From Geminocystis herdmanii PCC 6308 (GTDB lineage Bacteria > Cyanobacteriota > Cyanobacteriia > Cyanobacteriales > Cyanobacteriaceae): a DNA stretch of 64,000 nt. Below the pieces are notes generated by a model. That model was not told the origin of the DNA. It did no database searches and saw only the letters and a list, made by a program, of their open reading frames with translations. Position 1 is the first letter of the stretch, and every line of letters starts with the position of its first letter. The stretch is from the NCBI RefSeq assembly GCF_000332235.1, contig NZ_CM001775.1:3252231-3316230 (forward strand), in the 5' to 3' direction. The translations under genes were made by a program, and so were the position numbers. Of this stretch, positions 530 to 6,160 are shown in pieces.

Positions 530-2530
530 ATGTTTAGTTTAGAAGCACCTTTTAAGCCTATGGGAGATCAACCAAAGGCGATCGAGCGGCTGATACAATC
601 ATTACAGGCTGGATATTCTTTTCAAACTTTGCTGGGTGCTACGGGTACGGGAAAGACTTATACTATTGCTTGTACGATCGAGCAGTGGCAAAAACCGACT
701 TTGGTATTGGCACATAATAAAACTTTGGCGGCTCAGTTATGTAATGAGTTGAGGCAATTTTTCCCTCACAATGCGGTGGAATATTTTGTCAGTTATTATG
801 ATTATTATCAACCAGAAGCCTATATTCCTGTCACGGATACTTATATTGAGAAAACTTCTTCTATTAATGATGAGATTGATATGTTTCGTCATTCGGCAAC
901 TCGATCGCTCTTTGAAAGAAAAGATGTTATCGTGGTGGCTTCTATTAGTTGTATCTATGGTTTGGGGATGCCTGTGGAATATTTGAAAGCCTCTATTCCT
1001 CTGAGGGTTGGAGTGGAATATGATCCTCGTCAATTGATTCGAGATTTAGTCAATGTACAATATAGTCGCAATGATATTGATCTGCGTCGTGCTACTTTTC
1101 GCATTAAGGGGGATGTTTTAGAAGTTGTCCCTGCCTACGAGGATCGAGTTATACGGGTAGAATTTTTTGGAGATGAAATTGAAGCAATTTCTCTTTTAGA
1201 CCCTGTTACTAGCCAATTATTAGAGGAATTAAAGCAAATTAATGTCTATCCTGCCAAGCACTTTGTAACACCAAAAGACCAATTAGAGTGTGCGATCGAA
1301 CATATTAAGGAAGAATTAGAGGAAAGATTAATAGTTTTAGAAAAAGAGGGAAAATTAGTTGAGGCACAAAGATTAAAACAAAAAACTAACTACGATTTGG
1401 AGATGTTAAAAGAGGTGGGATATTGTAATGGGGTGGAAAATTATTCTCGTCATTTAACAGGCAGAAAAGCAGGACAACCTCCTGATTGTTTAGTGGATTA
1501 TTTCCCTGAAGATTGGCTTTTAATTGTGGATGAATCTCATGTTACTGTACCTCAAATTAAGGGAATGTATAATGGTGATCAAGCTAGGAAAAAAGTGTTA
1601 ATTGATCATGGTTTTCGTTTACCTAGTGCTTCTGATAATCGTCCTTTAAAAGCGGATGAGTTTTGGCAAAAGGTGAAAAAATGTATCTTCGTTTCTGCTA
1701 CTCCTAGTGAGTGGGAAATTGAACGATCGAACCATGAAATTGTGGAACAAATTATTCGCCCTACTGGTATTTTAGATCCTCAAGTTTTTGTTAGACCTAG
1801 TGAGGGACAAATTGATGATTTATTTGCGGAAATTAAAGAAAGAATTAAGAAAAAAGAAAGGGTTTTAATTACTACTTTAACTAAGAAGATGTCAGAAGAT
1901 TTGACGGAATATTTACAAGAACGAGGGATAAATGTACAATATTTACATTCGGAAATTCAATCGATCGAACGTATTGAGATTTTACAAGGTTTAAGAGCTG
2001 GAGAGTTTGATGTTTTAATTGGAGTGAATTTATTAAGGGAAGGTTTAGATTTACCTGAAGTTTCTTTGGTGATTATTTTAGATGCTGATAAAGAAGGTTT
2101 TTTACGATCAGAAAAGTCTTTAATTCAAACGATTGGTAGGGCTGCACGTCATGTTAATGGCCAAGCTATTTTATACGCTGATAATTTTACTAAAAGCATA
2201 GAAAAAGCGATTAATGAAACTAATCGTCGTCGAGAAATTCAGTTTAAATATAATCAAGATAATAATATTATTCCTCGATCGATCGTCAAAAAATCAAGTA
2301 ATTCTATTTTAGAATTTTTAGATATATCCAGAAAATTAAATAATCAAGAATTAGAAGAAGTTTGTACTCATATTGAAGAAATAGGTTTAGATCAAATACC
2401 TATTTTAATTAAACAATTAGAGGAAAAGATGCTACAAGCATCAAAAGATTTAGAGTTTGAAAAAGCAGTAGAATATCGAGATAAAATTAAAAGTTTACGA
2501 TCGCAAATGTCCACTATTAATAAGAGTTAA
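530..2530 (+). CDS. uvrB: UvrB, excinuclease ABC subunit B
   Basis: Damage-verification helicase of nucleotide excision repair; it receives damaged DNA from UvrA and recruits UvrC. The 666-residue length is normal for UvrB. Walker A GATGTGKT is at residues 36-43, the DNA-binding beta-hairpin motif [10 protein letters not shown] at 89-98, a DESH Walker B box lies near residue 338, and a C-terminal UVR domain that binds UvrC occupies about 628-660. The start follows a GGGAG ribosome site at 511-515. It stands alone, between the divergent rRNA operon and convergent exbD. Nothing is missing. Confidence 0.98.
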
Positions 2531-2538
2531 AATTTTGA

Positions 2539-2560
2539 TGGTGGGCATTGCCCACCCTAC
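2539..2560. repeat. GGTGGGCA palindrome between convergent uvrB and exbD
   Basis: A near-perfect palindrome (GGTGGGCATTGCCCACC, 2540-2556) followed by CTAC. The same palindrome recurs directly after chlH (38898-38914). Its position between two convergent genes suggests use as a two-way terminator, although the T-tract here is poor. Confidence 0.6.
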
Positions 2561-2573
2561 ATTTAAGAATAGA

Positions 2574-3191
2574 TTAAGGAAGGGGAGGAGGTGTGGGTGA
2601 TACTGGTGCTGGAGGTTGGGTTGGTTGTGGAGTGGTAGAACTATCGGGATAACTAGGATAATAGGGGTTAAAACCAGAATAAGGATCAACGGTTTGAGTT
2701 GGCGCTTGAGATTTACCGGGTAAAGTGGCTAAGGCAACTCTTTCTCCCCCTACTTCTTTGAGCATATCTAAGACTTCAATGACTTGACTATAACGGACTT
2801 CTTGGGAAGCGTGAAGTACCATTAATCCGCTAGGGTTCAAACTATGATAGTTTTTGATGGCACTATATAATTGCACTTGGCTAACGGGTTGTTTTTCTAA
2901 GTATAGTTGTCCTCGATTGTCTAAACTAACGACTAACATTTCTCGCATTTGAGATGTGCCTGTACTGGCTTGGGGTAGGTTTAAACTCAAGGCTTGTTGA
3001 CGGGAAAATCCTACGGCGGCAAGAATGAAAAAAGTCAAAATACAAAAAATTACGTCAATCATTGGCACAATTTCGATACTGACTTCTTGGGCGTTAATAT
3101 CTTGCCAGAGTTTAAAGGGTTTTACGCCAAATTTATGGTGATTGGCTGATTTTTTTTCCGATAGTTGAGATTTTTCAGATAATTGAGTCAT
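2574..3191 (-). CDS. exbD: ExbD/TolR-family biopolymer transport protein
   Basis: Stator subunit that, with ExbB, converts proton flow into force for outer-membrane transport through TonB. It has one transmembrane segment (about 42-62) with the conserved aspartate D46 in the motif PMIDVIF, then a periplasmic domain. The 205-residue protein ends in a proline/serine-rich tail (about 165-205) that most ExbD proteins lack. The gene lies downstream of exbB on the same strand, but the two are 552 bp apart instead of adjacent, because a hairpin-rich element sits between them. ExbD versus TolR cannot be settled from the sequence alone. Confidence 0.88.
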   Translation of the reverse strand: MTQLSEKSQLSEKKSANHHKFGVKPFKLWQDINAQEVSIEIVPMIDVIFCILTFFILAAVGFSRQQALSLNLPQASTGTSQMREMLVVSLDNRGQLYLEKQPVSQVQLYSAIKNYHSLNPSGLMVLHASQEVRYSQVIEVLDMLKEVGGERVALATLPGKSQAPTQTVDPYSGFNPYYPSYPDSSTTPQPTQPPAPVSPTPPPLP

Positions 3192-3299
3192 AAAGGTTTT
3201 CGCTACAAATAATATTTTTAATGATAAAGATTTTTTGATAAATTGTGGTAATCAAAGAGAGTCCAATATTAATACAGGGTTGTTCGATCGAACTTTTAA

Positions 3300-3745
3300 C
3301 TTTAGATGGGAGAAAGAAGTCCCACGCTGTAAACACTATAGCAAAACATTACGTTTCAGCGTGGGATGCCGATCCACCAACATAAAAAAGTCTGATAATA
3401 CATTCCCAAAATCAAAATCTTGTGCTAGAATAAACTTGGTCATTGACCCACCCAGCTGACTAAGAGGCTACCGAAGTGGTGTAAAAGTACTCGGCAGAGA
3501 CTAGGGAAGCAACTATCAGTTCACTAAAAGGTCGTAAGACGCTGGTAGGAAGCGAATAGAATTTTTGTTCTATGGGTCTGCGGAAGGCGGACTCCTGCTC
3601 GGGTTGGCGGAAGCCATAAAGGTAGTAATACCAGAGATGCTTAGTAAGACTCGACAATGCTTAGATTTGGTTCGGAGTATTGTAAAGCATTGGCAAGTGA
3701 GACGAGAAGCCTACATTAAACCTACGGTATAGTGTTAGGTACTTC
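3300..3745 (+). ncRNA. Hairpin-rich element, possible structured RNA of IS200/IS605 type
   Basis: Non-coding insert between exbB and exbD. It opens with a perfect 10-bp stem (TCCCACGCTG 3320-3329 with CAGCGTGGGA 3357-3366). About 300 bp follow with many short helices that look better as plus-strand RNA: CCGAAGT/ACTCGG (3471-3494), ATAGAA/TTCTAT (3556-3573), GTCTGC/GCGGAC (3576-3592), TGGC-GGAA-GCCA (3605-3616), GGTA-GTAA-TACC (3621-3632) and CAATGCTT/AAGCATTG (3655-3692). Two loops are GNRA tetraloops on this strand. The far end (3711-3740, CCTA...TAGG) touches the exbB stop codon. Terminal hairpins plus a structured RNA recall IS200/IS605 ends and their guide RNAs (HEARO/omega RNA), here without a nuclease gene. 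That assignment is inference. Confidence 0.4.
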
Positions 3746-4406
3746 ACTTATCCCTTGATAAACCAATTCTCATTTCTTCTTCTCGTTGAATCCATCGCTG
3801 ACGATAAATAACTTCTAAATCACTTCCAGCTTTCCTAAAAACTCGTACTTGGTTAAACCAAAAAGCCTGAAATAATCGATAAAAAACTACGCTAGTAATA
3901 GCTACGATTAATCCCACGGCTGTAGAAATTAAAGATTCCCCAATACCTTGAGTAACTCCTGAAGTTGCACCAGTGCCTAAGTCACTGAGAGAAATCGAGC
4001 CTAAAGAACGAATTAACCCTAAAACTGTACCTAATAATCCTAACAAGGGAGATAAGGCAATAACTCCTTCTAAAATTTTGTCACCTTTACGCATTAGGGC
4101 TAATTCATCATCTGCTCCTGTTTCTAAGGCTAAGTGGAATATTTCAGGTTCGGGATTATCTAATTGTAAAGGGGTATTTAAAAACTTTCCTAATGGATGA
4201 CTACGGTATCGAGAGGTAATCTCTAAAGTTTTTTCCCAATTAGTGGCAGCAGCGTCCATAATATTGTTTAAAATTTGTTCTTCTTTGATCAATACTTTTG
4301 ACCAAAACCAAATACGTTCGATGATAGTACCCAAGGCAAGAATGGATAAAAATAGTAAAGGCCATATCGCTACGCCACCTTTTTCAATTAATTCGGCTAA
4401 AGTCAC
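3744..4406 (-). CDS. exbB: ExbB/TolQ/MotA-type proton channel protein
   Basis: Inner-membrane proton channel partner of ExbD; energises TonB-dependent uptake. The 220-residue protein has an N-terminal membrane helix (about 12-32) and two further helices (about 112-135 and 155-180). Between them is the family's small-residue stretch ([12 protein letters not shown]). The order exbB then exbD on one strand implies a former operon. The stop codon overlaps the end of the hairpin element at 3300-3745, so that insertion lies exactly at the 3' edge of this gene. Confidence 0.9.
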
Positions 4407-4717
4407 TGATTGTTACTCCTCAATCTTAATATTAATTTTCATTAACTAATTATCTTGTATGAATTGACAAATGACAATTAATCTGATTTCAATTTTAAAG
4501 ACACAATGATTCGATCGAAATTCACCTATTCAGATTTTCAGGTGCAAATCTGTTAAAAATATCTACTTTCACATCTGAGACTCTCCACTTCAAGAAAAGT
4601 AGTTTTAATAAACTGGAGTTTGGTGAAGGTAGGCAAAGGGCAAGTAGGCAACTATAACTTTTACAACACGAGATAACAGCCTTGATGAGTATAAATAAAG
4701 AACAGATATACTTGATT
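4407..4717. other. Intergenic region, no gene seen
   Basis: About 310 bp upstream of exbB and downstream of the GGDEF gene. It contains a short G-rich repetitive stretch (about 4631-4652, AGGCAAA/GGGCAAG-like) and otherwise AT-rich unique sequence. No ORF, RNA gene or clear promoter was found. Confidence 0.5.
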
Positions 4718-6160
4718 CTATAGAATATGATATTTTACTTGATTTCTACCACTTTCTTTAGCATCATATAAGGCATTATCAGCCATTTTAATTAAAGATT
4801 CAATGGAACTTTCAGGGGAAGGAATAACAGAAGCAACACCTAAACTTAAAGTAATATACTGACTAACCTGAGATTTTTCATGGGGAATTTTTAAATTTTC
4901 TATTGCCTGTCTCAATTCTTCACTAATTTTAATTGCACCTTCTAAGGGCGTATTAGGTAAAATTATCGCAAATTCTTCACCGCCATAACGAGCTAAAAAA
5001 TCGGAGGCTCTTTTAACGATATTATTCATTATTTGTGCTACTCTAATTAAACATTTATCTCCTGCTTGATGGCCATAAATATCATTATAAGGTTTAAAAT
5101 AATCCACATCACAAAGAATAAGAGATAAGGGTTGTTTTTCTCTCCCACAACGTTGCCATTCTTGATTTAAAGTATTATCAAAAAAGTGTCGATTATAAAC
5201 CCCTGTTAAACCGTCAATAGTGGCTAATTTACTTAGTTTCAATTCTAATTTTTTTCTAACGGTAATATCTCTCACGGTGACAGAAAAACCATCACCTAAT
5301 TTGACGGCAATAAAATGAAACCATTTTTGAGTATTTTTATGATTATATCTAATATCTTCTTCTAAAGATTTCCCTGTTTCTACTACTTTGATAAAAGCTG
5401 GAAATAACTCTGGTTTAATTTTACTAATAAATTTTTTAAAAACTAATTTTCCTGTTAAATCTTCTGGTTGACTATTAAAAATTTGGGCGGTAACAGGGTT
5501 TACTACGATACAACGAAAATCTTTGATTTCTCCCGTTTGTGTGTCTCTTACAGCTTCTAAGGCGGCAATGCCATCAAGGGAGGCATTTAAAATACTAGAG
5601 ATTAAAGCCCTCGATTGATATAAAATTGCTTCAGCTTCTTTTCTTTGACGAATTTCTTTTCTAAGATTTTCTTGCTCTTTTTTAATTAATTGTTGCTCTT
5701 TTTCTAATAATTTTCTTTGGGTTTGAATAGTTAATTGACTACTAATACGAGCGATAACTTCTTCTTCTTGAAAAGGTTTAGTTATATAATCAATTCCCCC
5801 TACTTCAAAGGCTTTTATTTTATCAAATACATCACTTAAAGCACTAATAAAAATAACGGGAATATCTTTTGTTTTTTCCTCTGACTTGAGTTTTTGGCAA
5901 ACAGTATAACCATCCATATCTGGCATTAAAATATCTAGTAAAATTAAGTCTGGTGGATTAGATTGAGCTGCTAAAATTGCGGTTTCTCCATCAGGGGCTT
6001 TTTTTACTTTATAGTTTTTTATCTCTAACATCTTTGAAAGTACTCTTAAATTAGCAGGTTGATCATCAACGATTAAAATACTTTCAATAAGGTTATTTTC
6101 TGGGGAAAAATCATATTCATTCATTGATTCATTTAAAAATTTAATATCACAATTAACCAT
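4718..6160 (-). CDS. Response regulator with PAS and GGDEF domains (diguanylate cyclase)
   Basis: Predicted to make cyclic di-GMP in response to phosphorylation. A receiver domain covers about 27-145, with phosphoacceptor D76 in LILLDILMP and the conserved K of ITKPF. A coiled coil (about 146-180) leads to a PAS-like domain (about 182-305), then GGDEF (about 310-478). The catalytic motif is GGEEF at 393-397, so the cyclase should be active, and RASD (384-387), five residues upstream, is the product-inhibition I-site. The phosphodonor kinase is not encoded beside it; the hybrid kinase at 6458 is next upstream on the same strand, 297 bp away. Confidence 0.92.
   Translation of the reverse strand: MVNCDIKFLNESMNEYDFSPENNLIESILIVDDQPANLRVLSKMLEIKNYKVKKAPDGETAILAAQSNPPDLILLDILMPDMDGYTVCQKLKSEEKTKDIPVIFISALSDVFDKIKAFEVGGIDYITKPFQEEEVIARISSQLTIQTQRKLLEKEQQLIKKEQENLRKEIRQRKEAEAILYQSRALISSILNASLDGIAALEAVRDTQTGEIKDFRCIVVNPVTAQIFNSQPEDLTGKLVFKKFISKIKPELFPAFIKVVETGKSLEEDIRYNHKNTQKWFHFIAVKLGDGFSVTVRDITVRKKLELKLSKLATIDGLTGVYNRHFFDNTLNQEWQRCGREKQPLSLILCDVDYFKPYNDIYGHQAGDKCLIRVAQIMNNIVKRASDFLARYGGEEFAIILPNTPLEGAIKISEELRQAIENLKIPHEKSQVSQYITLSLGVASVIPSPESSIESLIKMADNALYDAKESGRNQVKYHIL

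Follow-up and report, generated by a model that had tools for sequence, protein, structure and literature searches.

In the cyanobacterium Geminocystis herdmanii PCC 6308, a transposase-free element of the IS200/IS605 type lies at positions 3301 to 3747 on the plus strand of the window (the whole stretch of 64,000 nucleotides that was analyzed), between homologues of exbD and exbB. The identity of this element is well supported, and it is probably an RNA-only satellite of IS200/IS605 (TnpB) elements that uses the resident TnpA and TnpB proteins in trans. TnpB is a nuclease related to Cas12; its guide RNAs are known as products of the tnpB transcript, and the protein is believed to secure retention of the element that encodes it. 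Elements of the same type are present in further cyanobacteria, so that the element may survive by using the TnpB and transposase already in the cell. The original prediction, that the insert is a non-autonomous IS200/IS605 relative which kept its RNA without a nuclease gene, and that it encodes a standalone structured RNA on the plus strand, is judged to have been right.

Boundaries and internal organization

The boundaries of the element were set by comparison of its copies. The span first proposed, 3300 to 3745, was thereby corrected to 3301 to 3747, with ends that are the left-end and right-end hairpins of an IS605-type element. The features of the locus are as follows; the gene names exbD and exbB are those of the original prediction.

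2574 to 3191, minus strand: exbD homologue, flanking the insert opposite exbB (ORF list; the same neighbor occurs in congener loci L109 and L112)
3294 to 3300, plus strand: TTTTAAC, presumed target site and TAM, directly outside the element (same motif before the left ends of copies)
3301 to 3747, plus strand: whole transposase-free IS200/IS605-type element (own-genome copies, copy comparison, absence in two congeners)
3320 to 3366, plus strand: left-end hairpin with a perfect 10-bp stem, 3320 to 3329 with 3357 to 3366 (left end common to own-genome tnpB elements)
3426 to 3431, plus strand: −10 box TAGAAT (position of the TA...T hexamer across the family)
3438 to 3509, plus strand: 5′ structured domain of the predicted RNA, starting GGUCAUUGACC (model R2, 73.6 bits; this copy belongs to the set from which R2 was built)
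3574 to 3594, plus strand: hairpin with a GGAAG loop, conserved in the family (helices 5 and 6 of the 20-homologue consensus; minimum-energy fold)
3617 to 3747, plus strand: TnpB-type omegaRNA (reRNA) scaffold, including the right end (model R1, 34.7 bits; R3 core at 3626 to 3709)
3706 to 3747, plus strand: right-end hairpin and terminal GTACTTCAC (nearest to resident tnpB right ends)
3748 to 3763, plus strand: 16-nt guide predicted in the host DNA beyond the element end (by analogy with TnpB reRNAs as laid out in the available text of PMC8612924 and PMC10278001)
3744 to 4406, minus strand: exbB homologue (ORF list; congener homologues)

Read along the plus strand, the left-end hairpin is followed by the −10 box, the 5′ domain, the GGAAG-loop hairpin, and the TnpB-type scaffold, which continues to the right end. 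With a predicted start at 3438 (plus strand), the structured RNA would comprise ~310 nt, of which the scaffold forms the 3′ third. Because the scaffold ends exactly at the right end, a transcript would enter host DNA and acquire its guide from the 3′ flank. The TTTTAAC motif is also found 5′ of the left ends of copies L002 and L004 and of the tnpB element L033, while L078 has TTTAAC in this position.

The structural details proposed earlier were largely retained. The perfect 10-bp terminal stem is present (listed as a 13-nt, 92% pair), as are many further short helices in the minimum-energy fold. One of the two proposed GNRA tetraloops, GUAA, is likewise present (GCAA in L002), whereas the supposed GGAA tetraloop is a five-base GGAAG loop both in the fold and in the consensus of 20 homologues. 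The far end does touch the exbB stop, with the correction that the right end itself carries it: the stop codon of the exbB ORF (3744 to 3746) lies inside the last bases of the element, TACTTCAC.

The proposal that the insert splits exbB from exbD fits the gene order in two congeners. In G003 (L109) and G002 (L112), exbB is followed by exbD across gaps of 324 bp and 114 bp, respectively, with no element between the two genes; in G004 (L110) and G001 (L111), a different gene follows exbB. The 5′-domain model had no match in any of these four congeners. The flanks of the exbB site have diverged in the congeners, where the empty site is seen at less than base resolution.

The absence of a convincing ORF, as originally stated, was confirmed: the element has no transposase, its four small ORFs (two of which extend past the stretch) had no Pfam match, and no TnpB coding homology better than E 0.25 was detected. 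The candidate explanation of a coding remnant, which had been raised as an objection with a tnpB remnant as its example, was rejected accordingly; what the element does share by descent with tnpB elements is the RNA scaffold in its 3′ third.

A relationship to HEARO/IscB omegaRNAs or to group II introns, also proposed at the outset, did not hold. At E ≤ 5 over positions 2500 to 4800, Rfam gave a single sub-threshold match outside the element and no intron; eight related loci gave nothing at E ≤ 1, and seven further loci gave only one tRNA at the gathering score. Neither HEARO (RF02033) nor the IscB (RRXRR) domain PF14239 matched anywhere in the genome at E ≤ 10. Moreover, a transcript initiated from the −10 box would carry no 5′ flank guide, given that this box is internal to the left end. 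The shared transposon superfamily and the hairpin ends would suit a HEARO/IscB omegaRNA remnant or a piece of a group II intron; with no RNA-model or protein match to accompany them, this origin is highly improbable and was rejected.

Relatives in the host genome

A search of the G. herdmanii genome for other copies, as had been proposed, returned 12 DNA matches to the stretch. L002 (at 2896407) is a complete copy with 78% identity, L004 (at 1634576) is a copy with both ends, and L003, L005, and L007 are partial matches; the copies sit in different flanks. L002 sits at the end of what is presumably a single-strand-binding-protein gene. The same locus lacks the element in congener G003, where TTTTAA is kept and where divergence of the flank makes the junction unreadable to the base. 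The stretch also matched DNA of eight out of 60 relatives at E ≤ 0.001. In L003, the long ORF at 2899 to 3231 arises from repeats of the type FSILNSQFSILH and is a tandem DNA repeat.

The left end, promoter region, and right end of the element match those of tnpB elements in the same genome, most clearly in L033. The genome contains 20 matches to the TnpB domain PF07282 and three to Y1 transposases, with an HVH motif in two TnpA copies. In L078, translation gave a 416-codon open frame, the same frame as the Pfam match, encoding a TnpB whose RuvC residues are D, E, and D. A separate locus, L006 (near 2152629), is an internally deleted tnpB element that keeps the left end, the start of tnpB, and the tnpB-derived RNA end; it scored 120.6 bits with the model of tnpB-element ends, R1, described below.

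Recurrence of the element in cyanobacteria

A pattern scan of a genome collection (84,980 species) with a 28-base motif from the 5′ domain found 26 stretches, all of them cyanobacterial (Moorena, Symploca, Calothrix, Anabaena, and a Nostocaceae MAG). In five of these 26 loci, TnpB homology was present in the retrieved DNA, at ~1.9 kb or more from the motif. When 291 genomes of the order were then searched with R2, a model made from 19 sequences of the 5′ domain, at least 85 places in 27 genomes matched at E ≤ 0.01, with up to 13 candidates scored per genome; 37 of the 85 fall in four genomes of one genus, and the weakest matches may be false. The 85 places comprise 30 and 52 loci plus three own-genome copies, and the counts that follow were scripted, with 20 loci also inspected by eye. 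With the own-genome TnpBs as queries (E ≤ 1e-3), TnpB coding sequence was found inside the element at none of the 85 places, and TnpB homology anywhere in the retrieved flank at two. Locus L147, at first taken for a member with an embedded TnpB, is not one, its TnpB belonging to a separate, decayed upstream element with other ends.

Signals flanking the 5′ domain were counted across the family. An end resembling the right end lies within 680 nt at 65 of the 85 places, in 62 cases exactly GTACTTCAC, and is lacking at the other 20; counted at 150 to 680 nt, GTACTTCAC was present in 61/84, compared with 0/82 for the upstream control and 2/84 for the control further downstream. The distance from RNA start to right end is mostly about 300 to 560 nt. 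In a 12-nt window from −16 to −4, a TA...T hexamer occurs at 74/85 places (3 to 15 of 83 to 85 in six control windows), beginning exactly 12 nt before the RNA start at 70/85. TTTAAC is found 60 to 260 nt upstream of the RNA at 44 of 83 places, against 2 to 10 of 82 to 84 in nine control windows.

Several loci showed arrangements of their own. L011 (G057) has the same start (GGTCATTGACCCACC) with a TnpB-type end, GGGGAGGATGTCAA, in place of GTACTTCAC, from which it appears that the 5′ start may be combinable with other right ends. At L142 (G102), an incomplete 5′ domain, limited to its first part, and a promoter-like sequence lie directly upstream of a gene (R2 match at 1501 to 1581, weak at E 7.7e-4), possibly as a recruited promoter or leader; the gene downstream presumably encodes pyruvate dehydrogenase E1 alpha. 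By eye, five Moorena loci (L052, L059, L063, L066, and L069) carry a similar nested insert of ~110 bp, which follows the 5′-domain CAGGG within the RNA and whose inverted-repeat character makes it look like another small mobile repeat. Genome G165 contains two pairs of tandem 5′ domains (L177/L178 and L183/L184) about 570 to 580 bp apart, an arrangement that suggests duplication or assembly effects and to which the two 5′-domain matches in L063 are comparable.

Covariation of the predicted RNA

For the window copy, the folding-energy z-score is −1.89 on the plus strand, where 6 of 100 shuffles did equally well, and −0.91 on the minus strand, where 20 of 100 did. Because folding energy alone is weak, the argument was made from covariation. 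A consensus of 20 standalone RNAs (alignment A4) contains 35 pairs, with 97.0% of cells paired, and the compensatory changes sought across homologues are there: 69 double-change cells were counted, compared with 18.7 ± 3.6 after shuffling, a number reached in none of 500 shuffles. Sliding of the pairing partners breaks the structure. A4 was built without 10 of the 26 pattern loci (L052, L055, L059, L061, L063, L065, L066, L069, L071, and L075), for reasons of nested inserts, truncation, or redundancy. More weight belongs to the double changes, since the structure was derived from the same sequences, which favors the paired-cell count, and since the alignment includes many close relatives. For the 5′ domain alone, 97.0% of cells are again paired, and 19 double-change cells stand against 5.7 in shuffles (0/500 as high); the number of pairs with a double change (five) was equalled in 25/500 shuffles, and that of further pair types (seven) in 491/500.

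These data bear on whether the RNA matters at all. The element might be moved passively by TnpA in the manner of a PATE or MITE, with only its DNA ends of consequence and its RNA a functionless, decaying remnant of a tnpB element. PATEs, transposase-free repeats of the IS605 type, are known in Haloquadratum (available text of PMC3119063), and L006 in the host genome is a plain tnpB deletion derivative. Passive remnants would be expected to drift, however, whereas covariation here extends over the whole RNA; the −10 box is kept at a fixed distance; and the 5′ domain is conserved, has no detectable TnpB coding ancestry, and was not once found with tnpB inside the element. Passive movement of a functionless remnant is, on this evidence, rather unlikely.

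Homology of the 3′ part to TnpB guide RNAs

The relationship of the 3′ third to TnpB RNAs was examined with a model (R1) of tnpB-element 3′ ends from this genome and its relatives, from which standalone elements were excluded. Thirty-one such ends were collected with a pattern that required TAGTTCAC or TAGTCAC-like ends, and 27 were aligned, L086, L091, L097, and L101 being left out for their long inserts; double changes occur in 20 of the 30 pairs of this alignment. R1 was searched against 33 sources (267,515 bases), among them 22 of the 26 pattern loci (all except L059, L061, L063, and L065). In the window it gave a single match at E ≤ 10, which scored 34.7 bits (E 1.4e-5) and covers 3617 to 3747 of the plus strand, so that match and element share their last position. 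Twenty-six of the 33 sources, including the tnpB-derived L006, matched at E ≤ 0.01, leaving L018, L056, L070, L071, L075, L076, and L077 above this value.

Since the right-end hairpin doubles as a DNA signal, a core-only model (R3) was built without it, from 23 tnpB ends (R1's 27 minus L033, L078, L083, and L089). At E ≤ 0.01, R3 gave matches in 27 of the 37 sources searched, L006 once more among them, with standalone homologues scoring up to 54.1 bits and a best standalone E of 5.6e-14 (L143). The ten sources missed were the window, L002, L003, L005, L010, L018, L060, L070, L076, and L138, so that L004 is the only own-genome standalone copy to reach E 0.01. With filters off in a 1.2-kb search, the window copy appeared at 3626 to 3709 (18.1 bits, E 8.9e-5), a match absent with default filters. 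Given this weak R3 score, the TnpB link of the window copy rests on R1, with the right-end hairpin included, and on the homologues. Standalone and TnpB RNAs share collinear helices and a GUAAGAC motif. As judged from these sequence models, homology to the TnpB scaffold is firm for the family and modest for the window copy taken alone.

Right ends and the presumed partner TnpB

The right ends were compared with those of resident tnpB elements, using four tnpB ends for the own genome and one for each other host. In the own genome, each of the four copies compared has a right end that is nearest to a resident tnpB right end (L031, L033, L034, and L078). Elsewhere the resident tnpB end was nearest for 6 of 12 standalone right ends in G094 and for 2 of 10 in G054, and for none in G101 (three copies), G039 (two), G045 (two, one of them a tie), G011 (one), and G153 (one). 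A host-by-host match of right ends was thus rejected as a general rule: it held in the own genome, partly in G094 and G054, and in none of the five other hosts. At the terminus, standalone right ends read GTACTTCAC, whereas the collected tnpB ends read GTAGTTCAC, the latter by virtue of the selection pattern and with counts made on the standalone side only; in view of this difference, the partner TnpB could be a different one. Among the 148 genomes of the TnpB-homologue set, with family status taken from the R2 search of 291 genomes, a close TnpB homologue was found in all of the 14 that are family-positive and in 96 of the 134 others (Fisher's exact test, p 0.012, genome size not controlled).

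The terminal difference could also mean that the RNA guides another nuclease, or a TnpB subgroup that has GTACTTCAC at the ends of its elements, in which case the 5′ domain would be a handle of its own. The extra 5′ domain would suit such a partner, as would the comparison of right ends, where in five of eight hosts the tnpB end used was not the nearest. Against it, models of the L032-type TnpB group match the core scaffold, and the own-genome ends are nearest to those of the tnpB elements L031, L033, L034, and L078. A guide RNA for a different nuclease or such a subgroup is consequently considered very unlikely.

A model for maintenance in trans

In the available text of PMC8612924, the RNA bound by ISDra2 TnpB is described as the tnpB 3′ end, the right end, and ~16 nt of flank, and the protein cuts next to a TAM that is also the TnpA target; the authors propose that TnpB cuts the empty donor joint and that repair then restores the element. 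An analogous cycle may be envisaged for the standalone element, in which this geometry persists although tnpB is absent. Its RNA would be made from the element's own promoter; a resident Y1 TnpA, recognizing the left and right ends, would move the element in trans; and a resident TnpB would be loaded with the element RNA, whose guide would come from the 3′ flank. After excision, TnpB would cut the empty donor site (TTTTAAC plus the guide sequence), and repair from a sister copy would restore the element. The 5′ domain would perhaps stabilize a transcript that is independent of tnpB or win TnpB in trans.

The same RNA could instead act as a decoy or regulator that associates with resident TnpB (or TnpA) and makes it less active; the element would then persist because donor sites are protected or because rival tnpB elements are held in check. 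For AmaTnpB, a part of the TnpB mRNA was found to inhibit in vitro cleavage by the complex (available text of PMC10278001), and the large 5′ domain sets the RNA apart from tnpB-derived RNAs. The guide-side end of the RNA falls exactly at the right end, however, and TTTAAC precedes the left end, both features resembling those of a guide RNA, and a decoy role is judged unlikely.

Returning to the RNA-only satellite, a broader proposal can be put forward tentatively: these elements may form a cyanobacterial class of RNA-only selfish elements, OMEGA satellites in which a large RNA module replaces the nuclease gene. With the help of the 5′ domain, a guide RNA expressed from a promoter of its own might then recruit TnpB in trans or prevail over the resident RNAs, with self-maintenance achieved purely through the supply of guide. 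If this is true, TnpB-based retention can be exploited in trans by RNA-only elements with their own promoter and a dedicated 5′ domain, and large natural TnpB guide RNAs are made independently of tnpB. The family also makes it testable whether non-autonomous IS605 elements persist through RNA-guided cutting or through transposase alone.

Comparison with known systems

Literature searches of an incomplete open-licence collection listed no title or abstract opening that describes a TnpB-type RNA-only element; the available text of PMC9956272 and PMC12558985, which treat TnpB elements and archaeal omegaRNAs, mentions none. For Anabaena sp. 90, 147 MITEs of 77 to 541 bp are described, which do not evidently resemble the inverted repeats found in the insertion sequences of that strain (available text of PMC3542288).

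Like HEARO/IscB omegaRNA, the RNA described here belongs to an element of the IS200/IS605 superfamily; it differs in matching no HEARO model, in the absence of IscB from the genome, and in a guide position that is 3′ rather than 5′. Standalone, trans-encoded IscB omegaRNAs have been reported in some genomes. With the PATEs of Haloquadratum walsbyi, some of which are described as degenerate IS605 elements, the element shares the lack of a transposase, IS605-like subterminal palindromes, and multiple copies; in contrast, it has a conserved predicted RNA with its own promoter-like sequence, a feature not mentioned for PATEs in the available text of PMC3119063. The closest resemblance in RNA layout is to the TnpB reRNA of ISDra2 and its relatives: a right-end scaffold, a 3′ end set by the right end, a guide position in the 3′ flank, and a TAM-like motif at the left end. 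Relative to the ISDra2 reRNA of about 150 nt (available text of PMC8612924), the standalone RNAs are longer, mostly at about 300 to 560 nt, and they are distinguished from TnpB reRNAs by lying outside any tnpB mRNA, by their own −10 box, by an element that lacks tnpB, and by an extra 5′ domain and hairpin.
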